This document shows, piece by piece, positions 7,786 to 29,407 of a stretch of DNA of 29,407 nt. The position numbers and the translations under genes were made by a program. Under the pieces are notes generated by a model. The model saw nothing but the letters and a program-made list of their open reading frames with translations, was not told the origin of the DNA and did not search any database. The first letter of the stretch is position 1; every line of letters starts with the position of its first letter. This stretch comes from a virus, in the IMG/VR virus record IMGVR_UViG_3300009152_000153, positions 1 through 29,407 of that record. One strand, given 5' to 3'.

Positions 7786-8010
7786 GGAGTCCCTTTTGGT
7801 GCATGACGTACCCCTTTCTCTAGAACCAGGTGTGCTTTGTTGCGTAAAAACAAAGAAGGGGGTGGGAGTAATTTTATTTTTGAAGTATCTATTGTGCAGA
7901 TTAATGTGTATGTATTGCTCTTGGTTCCATCAATCCCTATCTTGGGGGGTGGGGTGTACTGGGTGACACATAGTCATATTGTCGTTGGCGTGGGGTATTT
8001 AAAATATATG

Positions 8011-8038
8011 TTGACACAGTAAGGTATATGTGAGATAT
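8011..8038 (+). promoter_or_regulatory. Candidate rightward promoter
   Basis: A perfect TTGACA at 8011-8016, a 16-bp spacer and GATATT at 8033-8038 (4 of 6 matches). The leader that follows can pair TGTGG (8045-8049) with CCACA (8056-8060) just ahead of the AGGAG ribosome site of the gene at 8081. The -10 match is moderate. Confidence 0.5.
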
Positions 8039-8080
8039 TCGGGGTGTGGGCTTTTCCACATACACATAGGAGTATTAGAT

Positions 8081-8737
8081 ATGAATGCAACAACTAACTC
8101 AGTAGTAGAAGTAACAGTATCAGAGCAAGACTTGCTCGGCTTTAAGGCTAACGGCTCGGCTTTCGGGGAGTCAGAGTTAACAGCGGATGGTGCGTTGTTT
8201 GACTTTACTAAGCGGGTTTGTCCTAACGGCGGGACAACTGCCAACTGGTATGTGCTAGAAGCTGGTGCTAAGTCTTGGAAAGCGGGCTATGCTGAAGTTA
8301 AGAGTATCCCGTTGACTGGTGATGATGGTAAGGAAAACAATACAGTCACCAAGGCTTACTCTAGATTCTTGGCTCAATGCTGTGACAAGTACGGGCTCAT
8401 CAAGCCAACCAAGCCAACAACAACTGCTCAGGATAAGAAAGAGCAACGCAGTAAAGCGCAGTTGGCTATGGATGAACTCAAGGCTAAACCAATGGAGGAC
8501 TTGATAGCCGAGGTTCAGATGTTGTCGGCGTCACCAACATTGGATAATCTAAAAAAGGCTAGTAAGGTTCAAAAAGCCGTAGAGTCCAAGCGCAAGGACT
8601 TGCTTGCTGATCGTTTAGATGGTATTAAAGCCAAGCAGAAAGAGGTTAAGGACTTAATAGGTAATTGTATGGATGAGTCCAAGCTTGATATGGTTTTAGA
8701 TATATTGTTAGATAATGTTGATGTTGCAGTAATGTAA
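8081..8737 (+). CDS. Two-domain protein of unknown function, paralogue A
   Basis: A 218-aa protein. I chose the ATG at 8081 because AGGAG lies 8 nt upstream; the frame is open further left but without a ribosome site. The N-terminal part (about 10-105) has aromatic and Gly residues (GGTTANWYVLEAGAKSW) and may be a compact globular domain. After a Thr/Lys linker, residues about 118-218 are highly charged helices. Residues about 130-165 contain AEVQMLSASPTLDNLKKASK, which matches AEIAMLSKVPNSKNLAQAQK in the protein at 9540. The pair looks paralogous. Being first in the rightward arm suggests an early role, perhaps nucleic-acid binding. No family is recognised. Confidence 0.8.
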   Translation: MNATTNSVVEVTVSEQDLLGFKANGSAFGESELTADGALFDFTKRVCPNGGTTANWYVLEAGAKSWKAGYAEVKSIPLTGDDGKENNTVTKAYSRFLAQCCDKYGLIKPTKPTTTAQDKKEQRSKAQLAMDELKAKPMEDLIAEVQMLSASPTLDNLKKASKVQKAVESKRKDLLADRLDGIKAKQKEVKDLIGNCMDESKLDMVLDILLDNVDVAVM

Positions 8738-8799: not shown

Positions 8800-8991
8800 A
8801 TGTTTTTAGCCGAATGGAATGAAGAGGGCAAATACCATAGCAAGATGTTTGATTCTGAATTATCCGCTACTGAATTTGCTGTTGATGCTTACCTTGATTG
8901 TTTAGTATCAGTATCAATAAGACCTTACTCTTTTGGTTCTAGAGAATTGGATACGGAATTTGAATACCACATCGAGGCTAACCAAGACTAA
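8800..8991 (+). CDS. Small acidic protein (63 aa)
   Basis: ATG at 8800 follows AAAGGAAATACC, a good ribosome site. The 63-aa product is acidic and aromatic (MFLAEWNEEGKYHSKMF at the start, ELDTEFEYHIEANQD at the end). A terminator begins at its stop codon, so it closes the first rightward unit. Function unknown. Confidence 0.7.
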   Translation: MFLAEWNEEGKYHSKMFDSELSATEFAVDAYLDCLVSVSIRPYSFGSRELDTEFEYHIEANQD

Positions 8992-9060: not shown

Positions 9061-9089
9061 GGACAAAGTGACACGAAGTCATAATGTCC
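9061..9089. promoter_or_regulatory. 29-bp dyad, copy 1
   Basis: GGACA-AAG-TGAC-ACGAA-GTCA-TAA-TGTCC: both arm blocks match perfectly. It lies about 45 bp beyond the terminator of the first unit and just ahead of the octamer cluster, upstream of the promoter at 9419. Confidence 0.85.
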
Positions 9090-9092
9090 CCT

Positions 9093-9406
9093 ATTGTTCT
9101 GCGAATTTTATATCGTTCTATGCAATGTTCTGTAAAATATCCTTATAAATCAATAATGTCCGTAATGTTCTATTGTTCTGTACCGAAAAATTGAAAATCC
9201 AAAAGACAAAGACCCCCTTCGCATAGTGTAAGCACAAAGCACACTTAGGAATTTAGAATCTGAATTTCATTTTTTTAGTAGTAGAACAATAGAACATTAT
9301 ATATATATAGAGGTTTTTGCTTTCCATCCCCTTGATTTTATTGGGTTTGTATTGTTCTATTGATTACAGAACATTGACAGAACAATACCCGTATTTATAG
9401 AACAAA
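9093..9406. repeat. Cluster of AGAACAAT/AGAACATT octamers (candidate origin or control array)
   Basis: The octamer occurs as ATTGTTCT or AATGTTCT at 9093, 9124, 9164, 9172 and 9351, and as AGAACAAT, AGAACATT or AGAACAAA at 9283, 9291, 9368, 9379 and 9399; a diverged GTTCT is at 9115. The tandem pair at 9164-9179 is the exact reverse complement of the tandem pair at 9283-9298 (16 bp). A TA-only run (about 9296-9308) adjoins the second pair. Iterated short sites beside an AT-rich stretch are typical of phage and plasmid replication origins, but an operator array is equally possible. Confidence 0.75.
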
Positions 9407-9418
9407 GCGGACAAACGC

Positions 9419-9447
9419 TTGACATTGTCATGATTCTCTGTTATACT
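9419..9447 (+). promoter_or_regulatory. Strong sigma70-type promoter, copy 1
   Basis: Perfect TTGACA (9419-9424), 17-bp spacer, TATACT (9442-9447). An extra GGACA lies at 9409-9413, 5 bp upstream of the -35, and TGAC-ATT-GTCA (9420-9430) overlaps the -35. The promoter and flanks are nearly repeated at 10319-10347. The start site would be near 9454, which places dyad copy 2 in the leader. Confidence 0.88.
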
Positions 9448-9489: not shown

Positions 9490-9518
9490 GGACAAACTGA
9501 CATCTAGTCATAATGTCC
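9490..9518. promoter_or_regulatory. 29-bp dyad, copy 2
   Basis: GGACA-AAC-TGAC-ATCTA-GTCA-TAA-TGTCC, identical over all 29 bp to copy 6 at 13597. It lies in the transcribed leader, about 36 nt after the predicted start site and 21 bp before the start codon at 9540. Confidence 0.88.
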
Positions 9519-9539
9519 AAATTTACGGAGAATCACACT

Positions 9540-10133
9540 ATGCTACAAACTATCAAAACCGCAGAAATGCTAAACCAATTTAGCGAAACCGAAACCGCTA
9601 GTCTTATCTCTGCATCCATCGCCTATCACGAAGCAGGAATTGAATCAGGCAATGCTGTAAAAACCTATCAGACCATCATTGGTGCAAAACCTACCTACGA
9701 ACGCTACGAAATGGGTCGTATCATTTTTATCGAATCGTTGGAAAACGAGGGTCTGTCCGAAGATGCAGGGAACAAAAGATGGGAGCGCTTGCGCAAGGAA
9801 ATGGGTTTAACCGCTATCCCTAAATCTACTAATCCTGATTCTATCCGCAAGGCAGAACAAAGGGCAGAAGCTAAAGAGAAGCAAAGGGCAGAATTTGCAG
9901 GCAAAACCGATGACCAATTAAAGGCGGAAATTGCTATGCTCTCAAAAGTGCCTAACAGTAAAAACTTAGCACAAGCCCAAAAAATCAGTAGAGAAATAGA
10001 CTTACGCTTTAAAGAAGAAACCAAAGGCGAAGAAGAAGCACGAAAAACCCTCATTGCCGAAATCAATGAGTGGCTTAAAACCCAAAACCTAGAAACAATA
10101 AAGAATTACGCAAGAAGCATGAATCTAGTCTAA
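9540..10133 (+). CDS. Two-domain protein of unknown function, paralogue B
   Basis: A 197-aa protein. The frame also contains an ATG at 9513, but that lies inside dyad copy 2 and lacks a ribosome site. The ATG at 9540 has GGAG 9 nt upstream and is preferred. The N-terminal half (about 15-95) is helical with aromatics (TYERYEMGRIIFIESLENE). Residues about 100-125 are Ala/Lys/Glu-rich coiled coil. Residues about 127-150 (LKAEIAMLSKVPNSKNLAQA) match the C-terminal motif of the protein at 8081. It is the only gene between its promoter and two terminators, so it is separately controlled. A small regulator or DNA-binding protein is plausible; no known family is recognised. Confidence 0.85.
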   Translation: MLQTIKTAEMLNQFSETETASLISASIAYHEAGIESGNAVKTYQTIIGAKPTYERYEMGRIIFIESLENEGLSEDAGNKRWERLRKEMGLTAIPKSTNPDSIRKAEQRAEAKEKQRAEFAGKTDDQLKAEIAMLSKVPNSKNLAQAQKISREIDLRFKEETKGEEEARKTLIAEINEWLKTQNLETIKNYARSMNLV

Positions 10134-10318: not shown

Positions 10319-10347
10319 TTGACATTGTTAGCTTTCTGTGTTATACT
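10319..10347 (+). promoter_or_regulatory. Strong sigma70-type promoter, copy 2
   Basis: Perfect TTGACA (10319-10324), 17-bp spacer, TATACT (10342-10347). It shares GGACAA at the same upstream offset, CTTGACATTGT, GTTATACT and AAGGGTA with copy 1, exactly 900 bp to the left. It heads the operon that starts at 10431 and may reach the terminator at 18367. Confidence 0.88.
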
Positions 10348-18861: not shown

Positions 18862-19239
18862 ATGAATGATGGCGTAAAAATTTTGCTTGAACGGATGCAG
18901 ACCCACCCTGAGGAGTTTTTTGATTTTGGAAGTAAATGGGCTGGTGTAATTGGCGAACATAAAGACTTTTTAGAGGTAGAAGACCGCCAAGCCCTTACCG
19001 ACGGAATAAACAAACTTATGCAACAACGCTTTACCGAAAAAGTATTGGAGGAACTCGTTGACCCAACAGAAGAAAGTAATGTAAAAAAGTTGGGGAATAT
19101 GTTTACACAACGCAAAAGGGCTTTAGCGGCGCAAATTCCACCAATACCTTCTATAACTATTGAACAAAGCAAACATTTAGAAGCCCACTTAAAGGCTTTA
19201 GGGCAAACTCCTATTGCTGGAGTAACACAAACCCTATGA
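18862..19239 (+). CDS. Helical protein before the DNA polymerase (125 aa)
   Basis: I chose ATG at 18862. The open frame further left overlaps the nuclease in another frame and lacks support. AGGATAAACAAAAAC upstream is a moderate ribosome site. The product is helical and charged (MNDGVKILLERMQTHPEEFF; KLMQQRFTEKVLEELVDP). Its stop overlaps the polymerase start (ATGA), so translation is coupled. It may be a polymerase accessory; no family is recognised. Confidence 0.72.
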   Translation: MNDGVKILLERMQTHPEEFFDFGSKWAGVIGEHKDFLEVEDRQALTDGINKLMQQRFTEKVLEELVDPTEESNVKKLGNMFTQRKRALAAQIPPIPSITIEQSKHLEAHLKALGQTPIAGVTQTL

Positions 19240-21035
19240 ACATAATTACCCTAGACTTTGAAACCTATTACAGTAGAGAGTTCAGTCTTACTAAAGTCAC
19301 AACAGAGGAATATGTCCGTTCGGATATGTTTGAGGTCATAGGTGTAGCCGTTAAGGAGAACGACAATGATGCAGTTTGGTTTAGTGGGACACACGGGCAA
19401 GTTTCTGACTTCCTTCATAAATACGATTGGGATAACTCTTTTGCTCTTGCCCATAATGCTATGTTTGATTCCGCTATTCTTACTTGGGGGTTTGGTATTA
19501 AACCGATGGCTTGGTTGGACACGCTTAGCATGGCACGTTCGACAGATGGTTTGGAAGCTGGAAATTCCCTTGCTAAGCTTGTGGGGCGATATAATCTTGG
19601 CGCAAAAGGAACAGAAGTCCTTGACGCATTGGGTAAGAGAAGGTCAGATTTTTCTCCTAGTGAACTTAATGCGTATGGTAAATATTGCATTAACGACGTG
19701 GAACTAACCTACAAGCTATTCTTTATCCTCGCCGACCGCTTTTCAAAATCAGAACTACAACTCATTAGCCTCACGATCAAGATGTTTTCTGAGCCTGTGC
19801 TTCAACTAAATACACCGCTACTTGAACAACATTTAATGCAAGTGCGGACCCGCAAAGAAAAGTTACTTGATGCTTGCGTATCAGATAAAGATACCTTGAT
19901 GTCAAATCCAAAGCTGGCTGAACTACTTATATCTCTTGGGGTTGAGCCACCTATGAAGATAAGCCCTGCTAACGGAAAGGAAACTTATGCCTTTGCTAAG
20001 AACGACGAAGGATTTAAAGCACTCATGGAACACCCTGACGAGAGGGTTCAAGCCATCGTTGCCGCACGACTTGGAACTAAAAGCACACTTGAAGAAACTA
20101 GAACAGAAAGATTTATCCAAATATCCCTACGGGGAAGGATGCCAGTACCTCTTCGCTATTATGCTGCTCATACTGGTCGTTGGGGAGGCGATGACAAACT
20201 CAATTTACAAAACCTACCTCGTAAATCTCTTCTCAAAGATTCTATTGTTGCCCCTAAAGGATATGTTTTAATTGACGCCGACTCCTCACAAATTGAAGCA
20301 CGAACAGTTGCATGGTTGTCGGGTCAAACGGATTTGATCGAAGCGTTTGAAAGGAAAGAAGATGTATACAAGATCATGGCGTCAGCTATATATAACAAGG
20401 CAGAAGAAGAAATCGACTCGGGCGAAAGGTTCGTCGGTAAGACGACGATTCTCGGTGCGGGGTATGGCATGGGCAGTAAAAAATTTGCACTACAACTCAA
20501 AACTTTTGGCGTGGAAATTGCGGATGAGGAAGCGTCTAGAATTATCTCAGTTTACAGAGCCACTTACCCCCACATACCCCAACTGTGGAAAGAAGCTAAT
20601 AGCGCCCTTGATGCGCTCACACAAAAGAAAACTGCGCCTGTCGGGTGTCAACCCCAAGCACTTAGCCTTACGGAATCAGGTTTTTTATTACCTAGTGGAC
20701 TTTACCTAAACTACCGTGATTTACAGAAAGATAGCGACGACCAATATAGCTATGCAAGTAGGCGGGGTCGCATTAAGATTTACGGTGGGAAGATAGTAGA
20801 GAATCTTTGCCAAGCACTTGCTCGGTGCATTATTGGTGAGCAGATGTTGCGTATGGCTAGGAAATATAAAGTTGCTTTGACTGTGCATGATGCGGTCATG
20901 GTTGTAGTAAAAGAAGAGGAGCAAGAAGAGGCGGTAGCATATGTAGAAGAGTGCATGAAGTGGCGGCCGTCCTGGGCATTAACACTACCTCTTGCTTGTG
21001 AACTAGGTGTTGGTAAATCTTATGGAGAATGTTGA
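19236..21035 (+). CDS. DNA polymerase, family A with 3'-5' exonuclease
   Basis: A 599-aa replicative polymerase of the PolA type. The exonuclease motifs are DFE (7-9), NAMFD (74-78) and CINDVELTY (about 151-159). The polymerase has TGRWGG (313-318), motif A DADSSQIEAR (347-356), motif B KTTILGAGYGMG (402-413, fingers Lys and Tyr) and motif C TVHDAV (549-554). The 5'-nuclease domain of bacterial Pol I is absent, as in phage replicases, and the size fits the short phage form. It copies the phage genome, presumably with the primase-helicase at 27363. It is coupled to genes on both sides. Confidence 0.96.
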   Translation: MNIITLDFETYYSREFSLTKVTTEEYVRSDMFEVIGVAVKENDNDAVWFSGTHGQVSDFLHKYDWDNSFALAHNAMFDSAILTWGFGIKPMAWLDTLSMARSTDGLEAGNSLAKLVGRYNLGAKGTEVLDALGKRRSDFSPSELNAYGKYCINDVELTYKLFFILADRFSKSELQLISLTIKMFSEPVLQLNTPLLEQHLMQVRTRKEKLLDACVSDKDTLMSNPKLAELLISLGVEPPMKISPANGKETYAFAKNDEGFKALMEHPDERVQAIVAARLGTKSTLEETRTERFIQISLRGRMPVPLRYYAAHTGRWGGDDKLNLQNLPRKSLLKDSIVAPKGYVLIDADSSQIEARTVAWLSGQTDLIEAFERKEDVYKIMASAIYNKAEEEIDSGERFVGKTTILGAGYGMGSKKFALQLKTFGVEIADEEASRIISVYRATYPHIPQLWKEANSALDALTQKKTAPVGCQPQALSLTESGFLLPSGLYLNYRDLQKDSDDQYSYASRRGRIKIYGGKIVENLCQALARCIIGEQMLRMARKYKVALTVHDAVMVVVKEEEQEEAVAYVEECMKWRPSWALTLPLACELGVGKSYGEC

Positions 21036-26163: not shown

Positions 26164-27035
26164 GCGAACTAGCTCTGTTTAAAAAAGATTTACCCGACTA
26201 TCTTAAAAAGGTCGAATTAGATGACGCTACTAAAGCCCTTATGGGTAGTGGTGGTGGCGGTAGCAAACGTATTTCTTTGCGTGGCGGTAAGTTCCGCATG
26301 GTTGTAAATGGCGAAGAAGTAATGACTAGCAATAGCGAGACACTGAGTGTTGTTGTAGTAAACAATGCTAAGAAAGTATCCCGCACATTCTATGCTGGTG
26401 CTTATAACCCTAAAGCTGAAGCTACCCCTCCTGACTGCTGGTCTAATGATGGCGATCGTCCTGATGCAAGTATTGATGAGCCTCAGCACCATAATTGTAA
26501 CGAGTGCCCACAGAATATTAAAGGCTCAAGTGCAGGTGGTGGTCGTGCTTGCCGTCACTTCCGTCGTATTGCAGTAGCTCTTGCAGATAATGTCGGTGGC
26601 GATGTCTATCAGATGACTCTAGCTTCTAAGTCAATCTTTGGTAAAGGCGATTTAGATCACATGCCGTTTGAGCAGTTTGGTAGTTACGTAGCTTCACAAG
26701 GCTACAACTTAAACAACATGATTACTGAAATGCGCTTTGATCCAGATTCAGATACCGCTAAGTTGTTCTTTAAGCCTACAGATTTCTTGTCTGAAGAAGA
26801 TTGGGAATTAGCTAAGAAGCAAGGTATGTCTTCATCAGCACTAAAAGCTATTGAGATGAGCGTACCTAAAGGCGATTCAAATGCTCCTAAGTTGGCTGCA
26901 CCAAAGCCAGCAGCTAGAGAAGAAGCCGAGCCGATTGCTGAACCGAAGAAGCGCCCTGAGAAAAAAGCTGAAGCGCCGACACCTAAGAAAGACATTAAGT
27001 CGATCATGAGTGGATGGAGCCAAGAAGAAGCATGA
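26160..27035 (+). CDS. Probable ssDNA-binding-type replication protein (291 aa)
   Basis: ATG at 26160 overlaps the previous stop, with AAGGAGAAGC upstream. A Gly-rich GSGGGGSKRISLRGGKFRM (about 29-47) leads into beta strands. A Cys set (Cys93, Cys113, Cys116, Cys131) in CNECPQNIKG and GRACRHFRR looks like a zinc site. About residues 230-291 are a low-complexity Pro/Ala/Lys/Glu tail ending in SGWSQEEA. The layout of an OB-like core, a zinc site and a flexible tail resembles phage ssDNA-binding proteins, and the replication context agrees. No biochemical evidence is visible, so the role is inferred. Confidence 0.65.
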   Translation: MSELALFKKDLPDYLKKVELDDATKALMGSGGGGSKRISLRGGKFRMVVNGEEVMTSNSETLSVVVVNNAKKVSRTFYAGAYNPKAEATPPDCWSNDGDRPDASIDEPQHHNCNECPQNIKGSSAGGGRACRHFRRIAVALADNVGGDVYQMTLASKSIFGKGDLDHMPFEQFGSYVASQGYNLNNMITEMRFDPDSDTAKLFFKPTDFLSEEDWELAKKQGMSSSALKAIEMSVPKGDSNAPKLAAPKPAAREEAEPIAEPKKRPEKKAEAPTPKKDIKSIMSGWSQEEA

Positions 27036-27274
27036 GTTTAAGGGGCTACAGCCTTCGGCTTTACAAAGCTAACCAAGAAGCGGACTCTGCATTAATGGGA
27101 GTTCAGCTTGGTCGGTATTGTATGTCTAAAGATATCCCTGTTGTTCAGATTGCTGGCAAGTTCAACGTCTCACGCATGACGATATATCAGTGGTTTACTG
27201 GGGCTGCAAAACCTAGTAAAGCTAGGGCTGAAAAAATAAAAACAATGCTAGAGAAGGCTTGCTTTAGCGCATAG
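27032..27274 (+). CDS. XRE-like helix-turn-helix protein (80 aa)
   Basis: ATG at 27032 overlaps the previous stop (ATGA). Residues about 25-68 form a Cro/CI-type HTH: LGRYCMSKDIPVVQIAGKF, NVSRMTIYQWFTG (turn and recognition helix) and PSKARAEKIKTML. Such proteins bind operators as dimers. It is another candidate ligand for the 29-bp dyads or the 15-bp palindrome, with no direct evidence. The structured leader of the primase gene follows it. Confidence 0.8.
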   Translation: MSLRGYSLRLYKANQEADSALMGVQLGRYCMSKDIPVVQIAGKFNVSRMTIYQWFTGAAKPSKARAEKIKTMLEKACFSA

Positions 27275-27362: not shown

Positions 27363-29407
27363 ATGGCAACAACAGACTTATTGACAGCGGTACTGCCTAC
27401 AGAAGGGTGGTATTGCATTGTCGGTTTAAAACAGGCGGGTATTCCTAGACAAGTATTTGTCGAGACGCTTATAGAAGCGCAAGATGAAATTAACAATCTG
27501 TTGTCTAAAAGTTTTGATGTTTATTTTGCTTGTGCCAAGTATGGCAACGACGTCGATGGACGTACGCAGAAGAATAGCACTTACTTTAAATCATTTTGGA
27601 TTGACGTCGATTGTGGCTTGGGCAAGCCATATGCAGACCAAGTTGAGGGCTTATCGGCTCTCAAGGAATTCTGTGCGAAGGTGCATCTACCTTTGCCGAC
27701 GGTCGTCAATTCAGGGCGTGGTATCCACGCATACTGGAGACTTACTCAAACCATTTCTCGCAACCAATGGAAACCCGTCGCCGACCGCATTAAATACTTA
27801 TGTGAAGAGCACGACTTCAAAGCCGATGGTTCTAGAACTGCTGAGAGTGCTTCTATTCTTAGAGTACCTGAGACATTTAACTATAAACAAACTCCACCGC
27901 TTCCTGTGGAAATACTGGACGTGGCGGACGAGTCTAACTACGAAGACATAAAAAAGCTACTTGGTGTGCTTGTGGGTCCCGACTATATTCCACGGCAGTA
28001 CAATCAAGATACAAACACCAAAAAGAACATTACTAGTCGGTTTAAAACCATCATGCTTAAAACCATTGATGGTACTGGATGCAGTCAGCTAAAGGATTTA
28101 GTAGAGAACCAAGCTACTCTTGACGAACCAAGATGGAGAGCGGTGCTTAGTATTGCTGCAAACTGTGTAGATAGAGATGAGGCGATTCATTTAGTAAGTA
28201 AAGATCACCCTGACTACTCTCACGCAGAAACAGAAAACAAAGCTAATAAAGTTCCTTACCCATACTCTTGCGAGAAGATGGAGTATTACAATCCTGGGCA
28301 CTGCAAGGGCTGTACCAATTTAGGTAAGATTAAAAACCCTATCCAGTTAGGTAATGAGATTCTTGTAGCTGAGCCTGATGCTCCTATTGTTGTAGAAGCA
28401 GATGACGGTGTTAAGCATTCGTATAAAGTACCTGAGTTTCCGTTCCCGTATTTTAGGGGCAAGACCGGTGGTGTCTATCGCCAGCCAGCAGAGGAAGATT
28501 CTGAACCAATAACAGTTTACGAGCACGACTTGTATGTTGTTAAGCGCCTTAAAGACCCGAGTAAAGGCGACTGCGTATGGATTCGGTTGCACTTACCTAA
28601 AGACGGAGTACGTGAATTCTCTATGTCTCAAACCGATGCACTTACATTTGATAAGTTGCGTGAGAAATTAGCGTGGCATGGTGTGGCGGCACACAAAAAA
28701 GAGATGGAAGGGATTATGTATTACATAACGACATTCATTAAAGATCTTCAATACAGAGAAAGAGTAGAAATTATGAGAACACAATTTGGTTGGACAGACG
28801 ATAATTCCAAATTTATTCTTGGGGATAAAGAAGTAGCTGCGGATGGTGCGACATATAGCCCGCCTTCTAGTGATACTGGTAACTTGGCAAACTGGATGCA
28901 GCCGACTGGGTCTTTAAATGACTGGAAAGAAATTGTTGCGGTTTATAACCAGCCAGGATTTGAGCCACATGCGTTTGGTTTCTTCACGGCATTTGGGGCA
29001 CCCCTACTAAAGCATTTAAATCTTAAGGGCGCAATTATCAACTTGATTAACAACACATCAGGTACAGGTAAATCTACAATCCTTAAGATGTGCAACAGCG
29101 TGTACGGTCATCCTGACGAGTTGATGCTCCAATGGAAAGATACTATGAACGCTATGATCCACCGTCTCGGTATCATGAACAACCTGCCTGTAACTATTGA
29201 CGAGATTACTAAGCTATCAGGAGAGCACTTCTCAGACCTAGCCTACGGTATTTCACAAGGGCGTGGTAAGAACCGTATGAAGTCTCAAGACAATGCCGAG
29301 CGGATTAACACAACCAAATGGGCAACCATTGCTTTATGCAGTTCTAATGCTTCCTTCCAAGATAAGCTAGCAGCTTTAAAGTCTACCCCTGATGGCGAGT
29401 TCATGCG
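27363..29407 (+). CDS. Primase-helicase: AEP-type primase with DUF927-like ATPase (3' end beyond window)
   Basis: ATG at 27363 after GAGGTGAT; 681 codons are visible with no stop. The N-terminal archaeo-eukaryotic primase (AEP) domain has FWIDVDCG (Asp81, Asp83), VVNSGRGIHAYW (His122) and ADGSRTAESASILRVPET with Asp155. A Cys group (C303, C314, C317) in YSCEKM and GHCKGC may bind zinc. Next comes FGWTDDNSKFILG (about 475-487), typical of DUF927. The helicase has Walker A NTSGTGKST (564-572), Walker B VTIDE (610-614) and a sensor-like LCSSN (658-662). One protein would thus prime and unwind DNA for the family A polymerase. It is too long to be closed in this window. Confidence 0.9.
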   Translation, partial: MATTDLLTAVLPTEGWYCIVGLKQAGIPRQVFVETLIEAQDEINNLLSKSFDVYFACAKYGNDVDGRTQKNSTYFKSFWIDVDCGLGKPYADQVEGLSALKEFCAKVHLPLPTVVNSGRGIHAYWRLTQTISRNQWKPVADRIKYLCEEHDFKADGSRTAESASILRVPETFNYKQTPPLPVEILDVADESNYEDIKKLLGVLVGPDYIPRQYNQDTNTKKNITSRFKTIMLKTIDGTGCSQLKDLVENQATLDEPRWRAVLSIAANCVDRDEAIHLVSKDHPDYSHAETENKANKVPYPYSCEKMEYYNPGHCKGCTNLGKIKNPIQLGNEILVAEPDAPIVVEADDGVKHSYKVPEFPFPYFRGKTGGVYRQPAEEDSEPITVYEHDLYVVKRLKDPSKGDCVWIRLHLPKDGVREFSMSQTDALTFDKLREKLAWHGVAAHKKEMEGIMYYITTFIKDLQYRERVEIMRTQFGWTDDNSKFILGDKEVAADGATYSPPSSDTGNLANWMQPTGSLNDWKEIVAVYNQPGFEPHAFGFFTAFGAPLLKHLNLKGAIINLINNTSGTGKSTILKMCNSVYGHPDELMLQWKDTMNAMIHRLGIMNNLPVTIDEITKLSGEHFSDLAYGISQGRGKNRMKSQDNAERINTTKWATIALCSSNASFQDKLAALKSTPDGEFM

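Follow-up and report, generated by a model that had tools for sequence, protein, structure and literature searches.

The described origins closest to the locus considered here are those of the PICIs, which always have two sets of iterons flanking an AT-rich region (PMC6092414), and in 2018 it was stated that a two-array iteron origin of this kind is common to no known replicon except PICIs (PMC6092414). For one of the related SCCmec helicases, Cch2, it is the C-terminal domain that binds the iterons specifically (PMC7581432). The passages of PMC5862659 that treat AEP primase fusions of the PrimQH type describe the domain order primase, DUF927 ATPase and C-terminal winged helix, and there the winged helix is suggested to serve origin recognition.

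The stretch of DNA that was analysed, here called the window, is 29,407 nucleotides long (IMG/VR virus record IMGVR_UViG_3300009152_000153). It is a fragment of a tailed phage, with the portal and the large and small terminase genes on the minus strand up to 6357, a strand switch at about 7.5 kb and rightward early genes that begin at about 8 kb, their products being a MoxR-type ATPase, a VWA metallopeptidase, a family-A polymerase, a PD-(D/E)XK nuclease and an SNF2 helicase. Positions 9093-9406 are, with a probability that we put at roughly 0.87, the replication origin of a family of lytic caudoviruses of about 55-67 kb, with the octamers acting as iterons to which the phage's own primase-DUF927 helicase binds through its C-terminal winged helix. 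Judged from sequence comparison, the array is very probably the replication start site of this whole freshwater family of bacterial viruses, for which no described origin was found. The features of the window to which the text refers are as follows.

9061-9089: 29-bp dyad GGACA-N3-TGAC-N5-GTCA-N3-TGTCC, left of the array
9093, 9124, 9164, 9172 and 9351 (minus strand), 9283, 9291, 9368 and 9379 (plus strand): starts of exact AGAACAWT octamers
9112 (minus strand) and 9399 (plus strand): starts of octamers with one mismatch
9093-9179, minus strand: left iteron array (9093, 9112 with its mismatch, 9124, 9164 and 9172), conserved in relatives
9210-9228, plus strand: central core AGACCCCCTTCGCATAGTG, from the alignment of relatives, between the left and right arrays
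9283-9298, plus strand: right tandem iteron pair AGAACAATAGAACATT, where conservation within the element is highest
9299-9309: TA-only run adjoining the right tandem pair, candidate DNA unwinding element
9351-9406: right outer iterons, at 9351 (minus), 9368 (plus), 9379 (plus) and 9399 (plus, one mismatch)
9419-9447, plus strand: sigma-70-like promoter TTGACA-17-TATACT, a consensus match only, at 11/12 consensus positions
9490-9518: second copy of the 29-bp dyad, right of the array
19236-21035: family-A polymerase, a phage gene
27032-27274, plus strand: small HTH protein of about 80 aa, accessory, the array of one relative (G012) being present without it
27363-29407, plus strand: initiator candidate with a primase-like N-terminus, a DUF927 helicase of the Cch/SaPI Rep type and a predicted C-terminal winged helix, running off the window

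A reading of the window made from the sequence alone had reported about ten octamers in both orientations in a gene-free 314 bp, and counting bears this out, with 9 exact AGAACAWT octamers and 2 one-mismatch copies within 9093-9406, a stretch that falls between the stop codon at 8991 and the start codon that comes next, at 9513/9540. The octamers at 9164 and 9172 form a period-8 tandem pair at the inner end of the left array, and this 16-bp pair (9164-9179) is the exact reverse complement of 9283-9298, as that reading had it; the TA-only run that it placed beside the right pair is likewise there. The octamer cluster is confirmed as real and not a product of chance. In 300 Markov-simulated windows the densest 314 bp held at most 2 AGAACAWT sites against the 9 observed, the best 8-mer class of any kind reached 3-4 copies in 314 bp per simulated window and never more than 4, and the expectation from the local AT-rich composition is 0.055 sites per 314 bp. 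Compared with a relative about 88% identical to the window (L007), substitutions number 3/88 in the sites, 19/229 in the rest of the element and 27/162 in the flanks, and all three changes in the sites remain within, or restore, the consensus.

The element is not peculiar to the window. A profile built from it matches 63 loci, 43 of them distinct (several of the matches are weak and some loci are cut), and a homologous noncoding element is present, one per genome, in 40-odd distinct relatives belonging to the freshwater lytic phage family, which answers the earlier proposal to search for the octamers in relatives with conservation across the family. The layout is near-constant: left-pointing sites are followed by about 110 bp containing the core AGACCCCCTTCGCATAGTG, a separation of the left and right arrays that is kept in almost all relatives, then by the tandem pair of period 8 with an AT-rich run next to it, by a single site pointing left and finally by 2-3 right-pointing sites at about 10-bp spacing. 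A motif-free k-mer search found an iterated array between terS and moxR in 20/23 records; two of the exceptions, G014 and G016, have terL at the contig end and so are probably missing the array region, and in the third, G019, the element is still matched by the profile. Each genome has its sites gathered at a single locus, and no other part of any genome has a cluster of similar density. When IMG/VR was scanned with exact patterns, contigs carrying marker proteins of the family made up 21/25 matches of the RGAACAWT pair, 49/54 of the TAACAWT pair and all 17 of the 17 contigs matched by the core pattern GACCCCCYTCGCATAGTGCA. Array GC is below genome GC in 19/20 relatives, and of all 25-bp stretches the one with the lowest computed duplex stability lies across or against the right pair in 29/30. 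The AT tract is beside the right pair and not at the centre. Searching the element by blastn against 50,697 phage records gave no match, and the isolate KPP25, which has a similar polymerase, showed neither the array nor a relative of the initiator in the stretch checked. Rhizobium phage RHph_TM3_14A has an initiator homologue of 24% identity and, at the same map position, a 770-bp gap with a few RAACATA copies beside an AT tract, which is suggestive, not significant.

The gene order around the element is kept in the relatives of 50-67 kb, with portal, terL and terS on the minus strand, then the switch, then moxR, vwa, pol, snf2, hth and duf927 on the plus strand. As terS is only 1.1-2.8 kb from the array, the element might be thought of as a packaging (cos/pac) or partition site, yet it sits beyond the strand switch and outside terS, and its coupling is to a replication protein and not to the terminase. 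Neither a tyrosine integrase nor a ParA-type ATPase was found in the 14 large relatives searched, an absence which makes the phages look lytic and also speaks against partition, and a packaging or partition role is considered very improbable.

Whilst the plan of the element and its map position are kept, the spelling of the octamer is not. Five spellings occur by lineage, namely RGAACAWT, TAACAWT (L024, L019, L358, L359 and one deep lineage), AGTGAACA (G005, G012 and G013), the TAWTAGAAA class (written TATTAGAAA/TATAAGAAA in G007 and G015) and YGGAACA (G008), and a change of spelling affects most or all sites of an element together, with a few elements of mixed spelling (e.g. G003, G017, G025). 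The orientation is also free: in the AGTGAACA and YGGAACA lineages the site order mirrors that of the window with the flanking genes unchanged, and the profile matches the YGGAACA-like elements of L066, L047, L051 and L077 on the opposite strand. Such inversion relative to the genes is tolerable for an origin, and freedom of spelling and orientation within a fixed plan and position is expected of an origin with a co-evolving initiator, not of a promoter region or leader. A noncoding RNA or structured leader is in any case extremely improbable; the 16-bp inverted repeat could pair in RNA, but no Rfam family was matched at threshold, the weak chance microRNA matches that the search returned are put down to the inverted repeat, the orientation relative to genes varies and the sites behave as independent 8-mers. 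The C-rich core, possibly a priming or strand-selection signal, keeps a CGCAnAGTGCA-like part in G007, G015, L064 and L085 although all of their iterons have changed. The alpha protein of satellite phage P4 is a fused primase-helicase that binds arrays of the octamer GGTGAACA in ori and crr, and the AGTGAACA iterons of G005, G012 and G013 resemble it, a likeness that is a lead only and may be chance; the P4 helicase belongs to another family than the one found here.

One point against an origin is the good early promoter that adjoins the array. The match at 9419-9447 is probably the early rightward promoter, going by its sequence, and the octamers could be an operator or enhancer cluster through which a phage regulator controls it, as repeated sites in both orientations would also fit an operator cluster and the array lies just right of the strand switch. 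Several observations make this quite unlikely. The gene downstream of the element varies among relatives whereas the element itself stays, in the AGTGAACA and YGGAACA lineages the complete element is turned round with respect to the genes, and the spelling of the octamers is coupled to the primase-helicase. Furthermore the octamers occur at one place per genome, and it is the 29-bp dyads that are scattered as operators would be. There are nine copies of the dyad in the window (at most 3 mismatches; none expected by chance), starting at 7956, 9061, 9490, 10386, 11080, 12613, 13597, 16411 and 18408, several of them just upstream of early genes, and the two flanking the array are probably an operator separate from the iterons.

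The control region has some further peculiarities. Near-identical promoters TTGACA-17-TATACT are found at 9419-9447 and 10319-10347, each having a dyad and, beyond it, a ribosome-binding site downstream, which suggests that an early control cassette has been duplicated. The role of the dyad is filled in relatives by other palindromes, TACTGTCNGACAGTA in 10-14 copies in G005, G012 and G013 and CTAACANTGTTAG in 21 copies in G007 and 8 in G015, and together these look like a lineage-specific operator regulon. The genes on either side of the array (8030-8737 and 9513-10133) resemble distant paralogues without a family match, and their presence and the side of the array on which they lie differ among relatives.

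The sequence-only reading had held that no initiator protein of a known iteron-binding type was visible, and here it has to be corrected: a candidate initiator is visible in the primase-DUF927 helicase at 27363-29407, whose solved relatives are Cch and SaPIBov1 Rep. The gene is complete in a near-identical contig (L088:14633-17446), where it encodes 937 aa, and it was found in all large relatives examined, with shorter contigs ending before the gene; it is about 18 kb from the array (9.1-9.4 kb vs 27.4 kb), a distance that is comparable in relatives. The product matches Pfam DUF927 (E 4.5e-33) and has PHROG similarity to primase/helicases. Its N-terminus carries the primase-like motifs D-x-D, SGRGIHAYW and LRVP with weak PHROG similarity to polymerase/primase (E 1e-5), and a Pfam search of this part gave no primase match. 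Sequence comparison with solved structures gave two strong matches and no others, SCCmec Cch (5dgk, E 3e-17) and the SaPIBov1 replication initiator (8tch, E 2e-9), and the same two were the only significant Foldseek matches of a model of moderate quality. AlphaFold modelled the AAA part poorly (mean pLDDT 57). A winged helix is predicted for the final 138 residues, with a core pLDDT of about 90, and for this C-terminal domain alone 5dgk and 8tch rank first among 350,542 chains, with weak E-values of 0.05 and 0.15. On these similarities and models the protein would be a self-loading helicase of the Rep/Cch type (DUF927), its helicase activity being predicted. An initiator of the Rep_3 or RepA type was found nowhere among the main conserved proteins scanned.

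Comparison with the known systems can now be made at both the protein and the DNA level. SCCmec Cch is the best solved relative of the helicase, and the iteron-binding C-terminal domain of Cch2 may have its counterpart in the predicted winged helix, which co-varies with the iteron class. Unlike the present system, SCCmec has a separate, unrelated primase and the repeats of the Cch2 origin are direct and lie immediately downstream of the operon (PMC7581432), and identity of Cch/Cch2 to the present initiator is low. The PrimQH fusions have a similar domain order, with DUF927 and a predicted winged helix both present here behind a primase-like N-terminus; in the passages that treat them no origin is assigned to the DUF927 members (PMC5862659). 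The pri-rep-ori of SaPIBov1 and other PICI/SaPI elements resembles the present locus in its two sets of short iterons flanking a region of low stability and in a homologous DUF927 initiator helicase (PDB 8tch) with the primase adjacent or fused. It differs in that the element here is found in a lytic phage of about 60 kb without integrase, has a conserved C-rich core and can be inverted. The PICI/SaPI origin also lies directly 3' of the rep gene and the present one about 18 kb from the initiator gene, so that by analogy the element would work like a PICI/SaPI origin without being one in the strict sense of position.

Changes in the predicted C-terminal winged helix go together with the class of iteron. 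At residue 891, on the margin of the predicted wing, 21/21 initiators of the RGAACAWT clade have K and 13/13 of the TAACAWT lineage have N; AGTGAACA phages have R there, YGGAACA phages K and TAWTAGAAA phages T. Most of this agreement is shared descent, and the informative case is one phage that has crossed between classes. In a tree built from the helicase domain, with the winged helix left out, L122 (with identical copies L115 and L120) nests within the RGAACAWT clade as sister to G011/G026 with strong support. A second contig, L358, overlaps it by 4303 bp at 99.21% identity and its origin has 12 TAACAWT sites; through this contig the phage is seen to have switched to TAACATT iterons. The two classes are separated by 74 columns of the initiator, and L122 crosses at only one, residue 891, where K has become N. 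It appears from this that iteron specificity co-evolves with the initiator, octamer base 2 (G or T) pairing with residue 891 (K or N). The evidence is strong, not final, as it comes from one switch event linked through two overlapping contigs, and against a strict K/N pairing the K-bearing RGAACAWT-clade phages G003 and G017 have several TAACAWT sites.

The same phage bears on the possibility that the locus is an origin whose octamers are read by the small HTH protein (27032-27274), which would then bring in the helicase. The HTH gene immediately precedes that of the primase-helicase in nearly all relatives and is well conserved, and the recognition helix differs in TAWTAGAAA phages. In L122, however, the HTH protein has kept the VSRMTIYSWF recognition helix of RGAACAWT phages and it is the winged helix of the initiator that changed, and G012 has a AGTGAACA array with no HTH protein by profile search, so recognition by this protein is unlikely. 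Recognition by the initiator's own winged helix would recall the lambdoid phages, in which the iterons of the O protein are type-specific and change together with that initiator's DNA-binding domain, a concerted switching also seen in the present phages. The O protein is not a helicase and its iterons are inside the O gene, unlike the present array. A wider proposal, to which we give even odds, is that PICI-like origins are not confined to satellites and islands and serve a large family of lytic phages as its standing origin. Specificity would be set by a small winged-helix code (at 891, K with GAACA and N with TAACA) and could switch at all of the approximately ten sites at once, giving separate replication types among close relatives.

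The array and its coupling to the predicted winged helix can be read off the compared genomes, and from them a possible sequence of events may be put forward. The initiator would multimerise on the two oppositely oriented arrays, and the AT tract beside the right tandem pair, of low computed stability, would melt. Helicase rings would then load and the primase domain prime, perhaps at the conserved core, after which the phage family-A polymerase (19236-21035) would extend, probably in both directions. The earlier suggestion of a candidate replication origin is strengthened through conservation across the family and an initiator that tracks the octamer class, with the function itself being inferred. 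It had also been proposed that genome-wide GC skew be used as a check. The cumulative minimum is indeed near the array, 1.1-3.3 kb to its left in 14/14 relatives of at least 50 kb, and the maximum is usually 17-26 kb to its right; but the minimum falls at the strand switch, and over the roughly 1.5 kb of the window from the switch (about 7.5 kb) to the array the skew has already turned strongly positive, matching the direction of transcription. As minimum and maximum follow gene orientation, the skew is rejected as independent proof; it is compatible with an origin at the array and does not locate it.

A plan very similar to the two-array iteron origin, with a homologous initiator, is now seen beyond the PICIs, in the lytic phages of a widespread family. 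Their natural pairings of origin and initiator, dozens in number and in five spellings, offer a way to read how specificity changes in an initiator helicase, and the natural variants supply a hypothesis on iteron specificity that concerns a single residue. The element can also serve as a sequence tag with which members of the family are recovered from raw metagenomes.

A search for the host in genome contigs gave two matches, a pond MAG and a Dehalococcoidia MAG, both of them doubtful. The latter (L280, CP070693.1, a 1.12-Mb chromosome) contains a terminase fragment 78% identical to that of the window phage, which could be a prophage remnant or a binning artefact. Lastly, the Rhizobium phage gene EVB41_076 of MN988472 (L186:30240-33323), annotated as a 'putative integrase', is homologous to the primase-DUF927 helicase along almost all of its length (24% identity, E 4e-61), and the annotation is on that account probably wrong.
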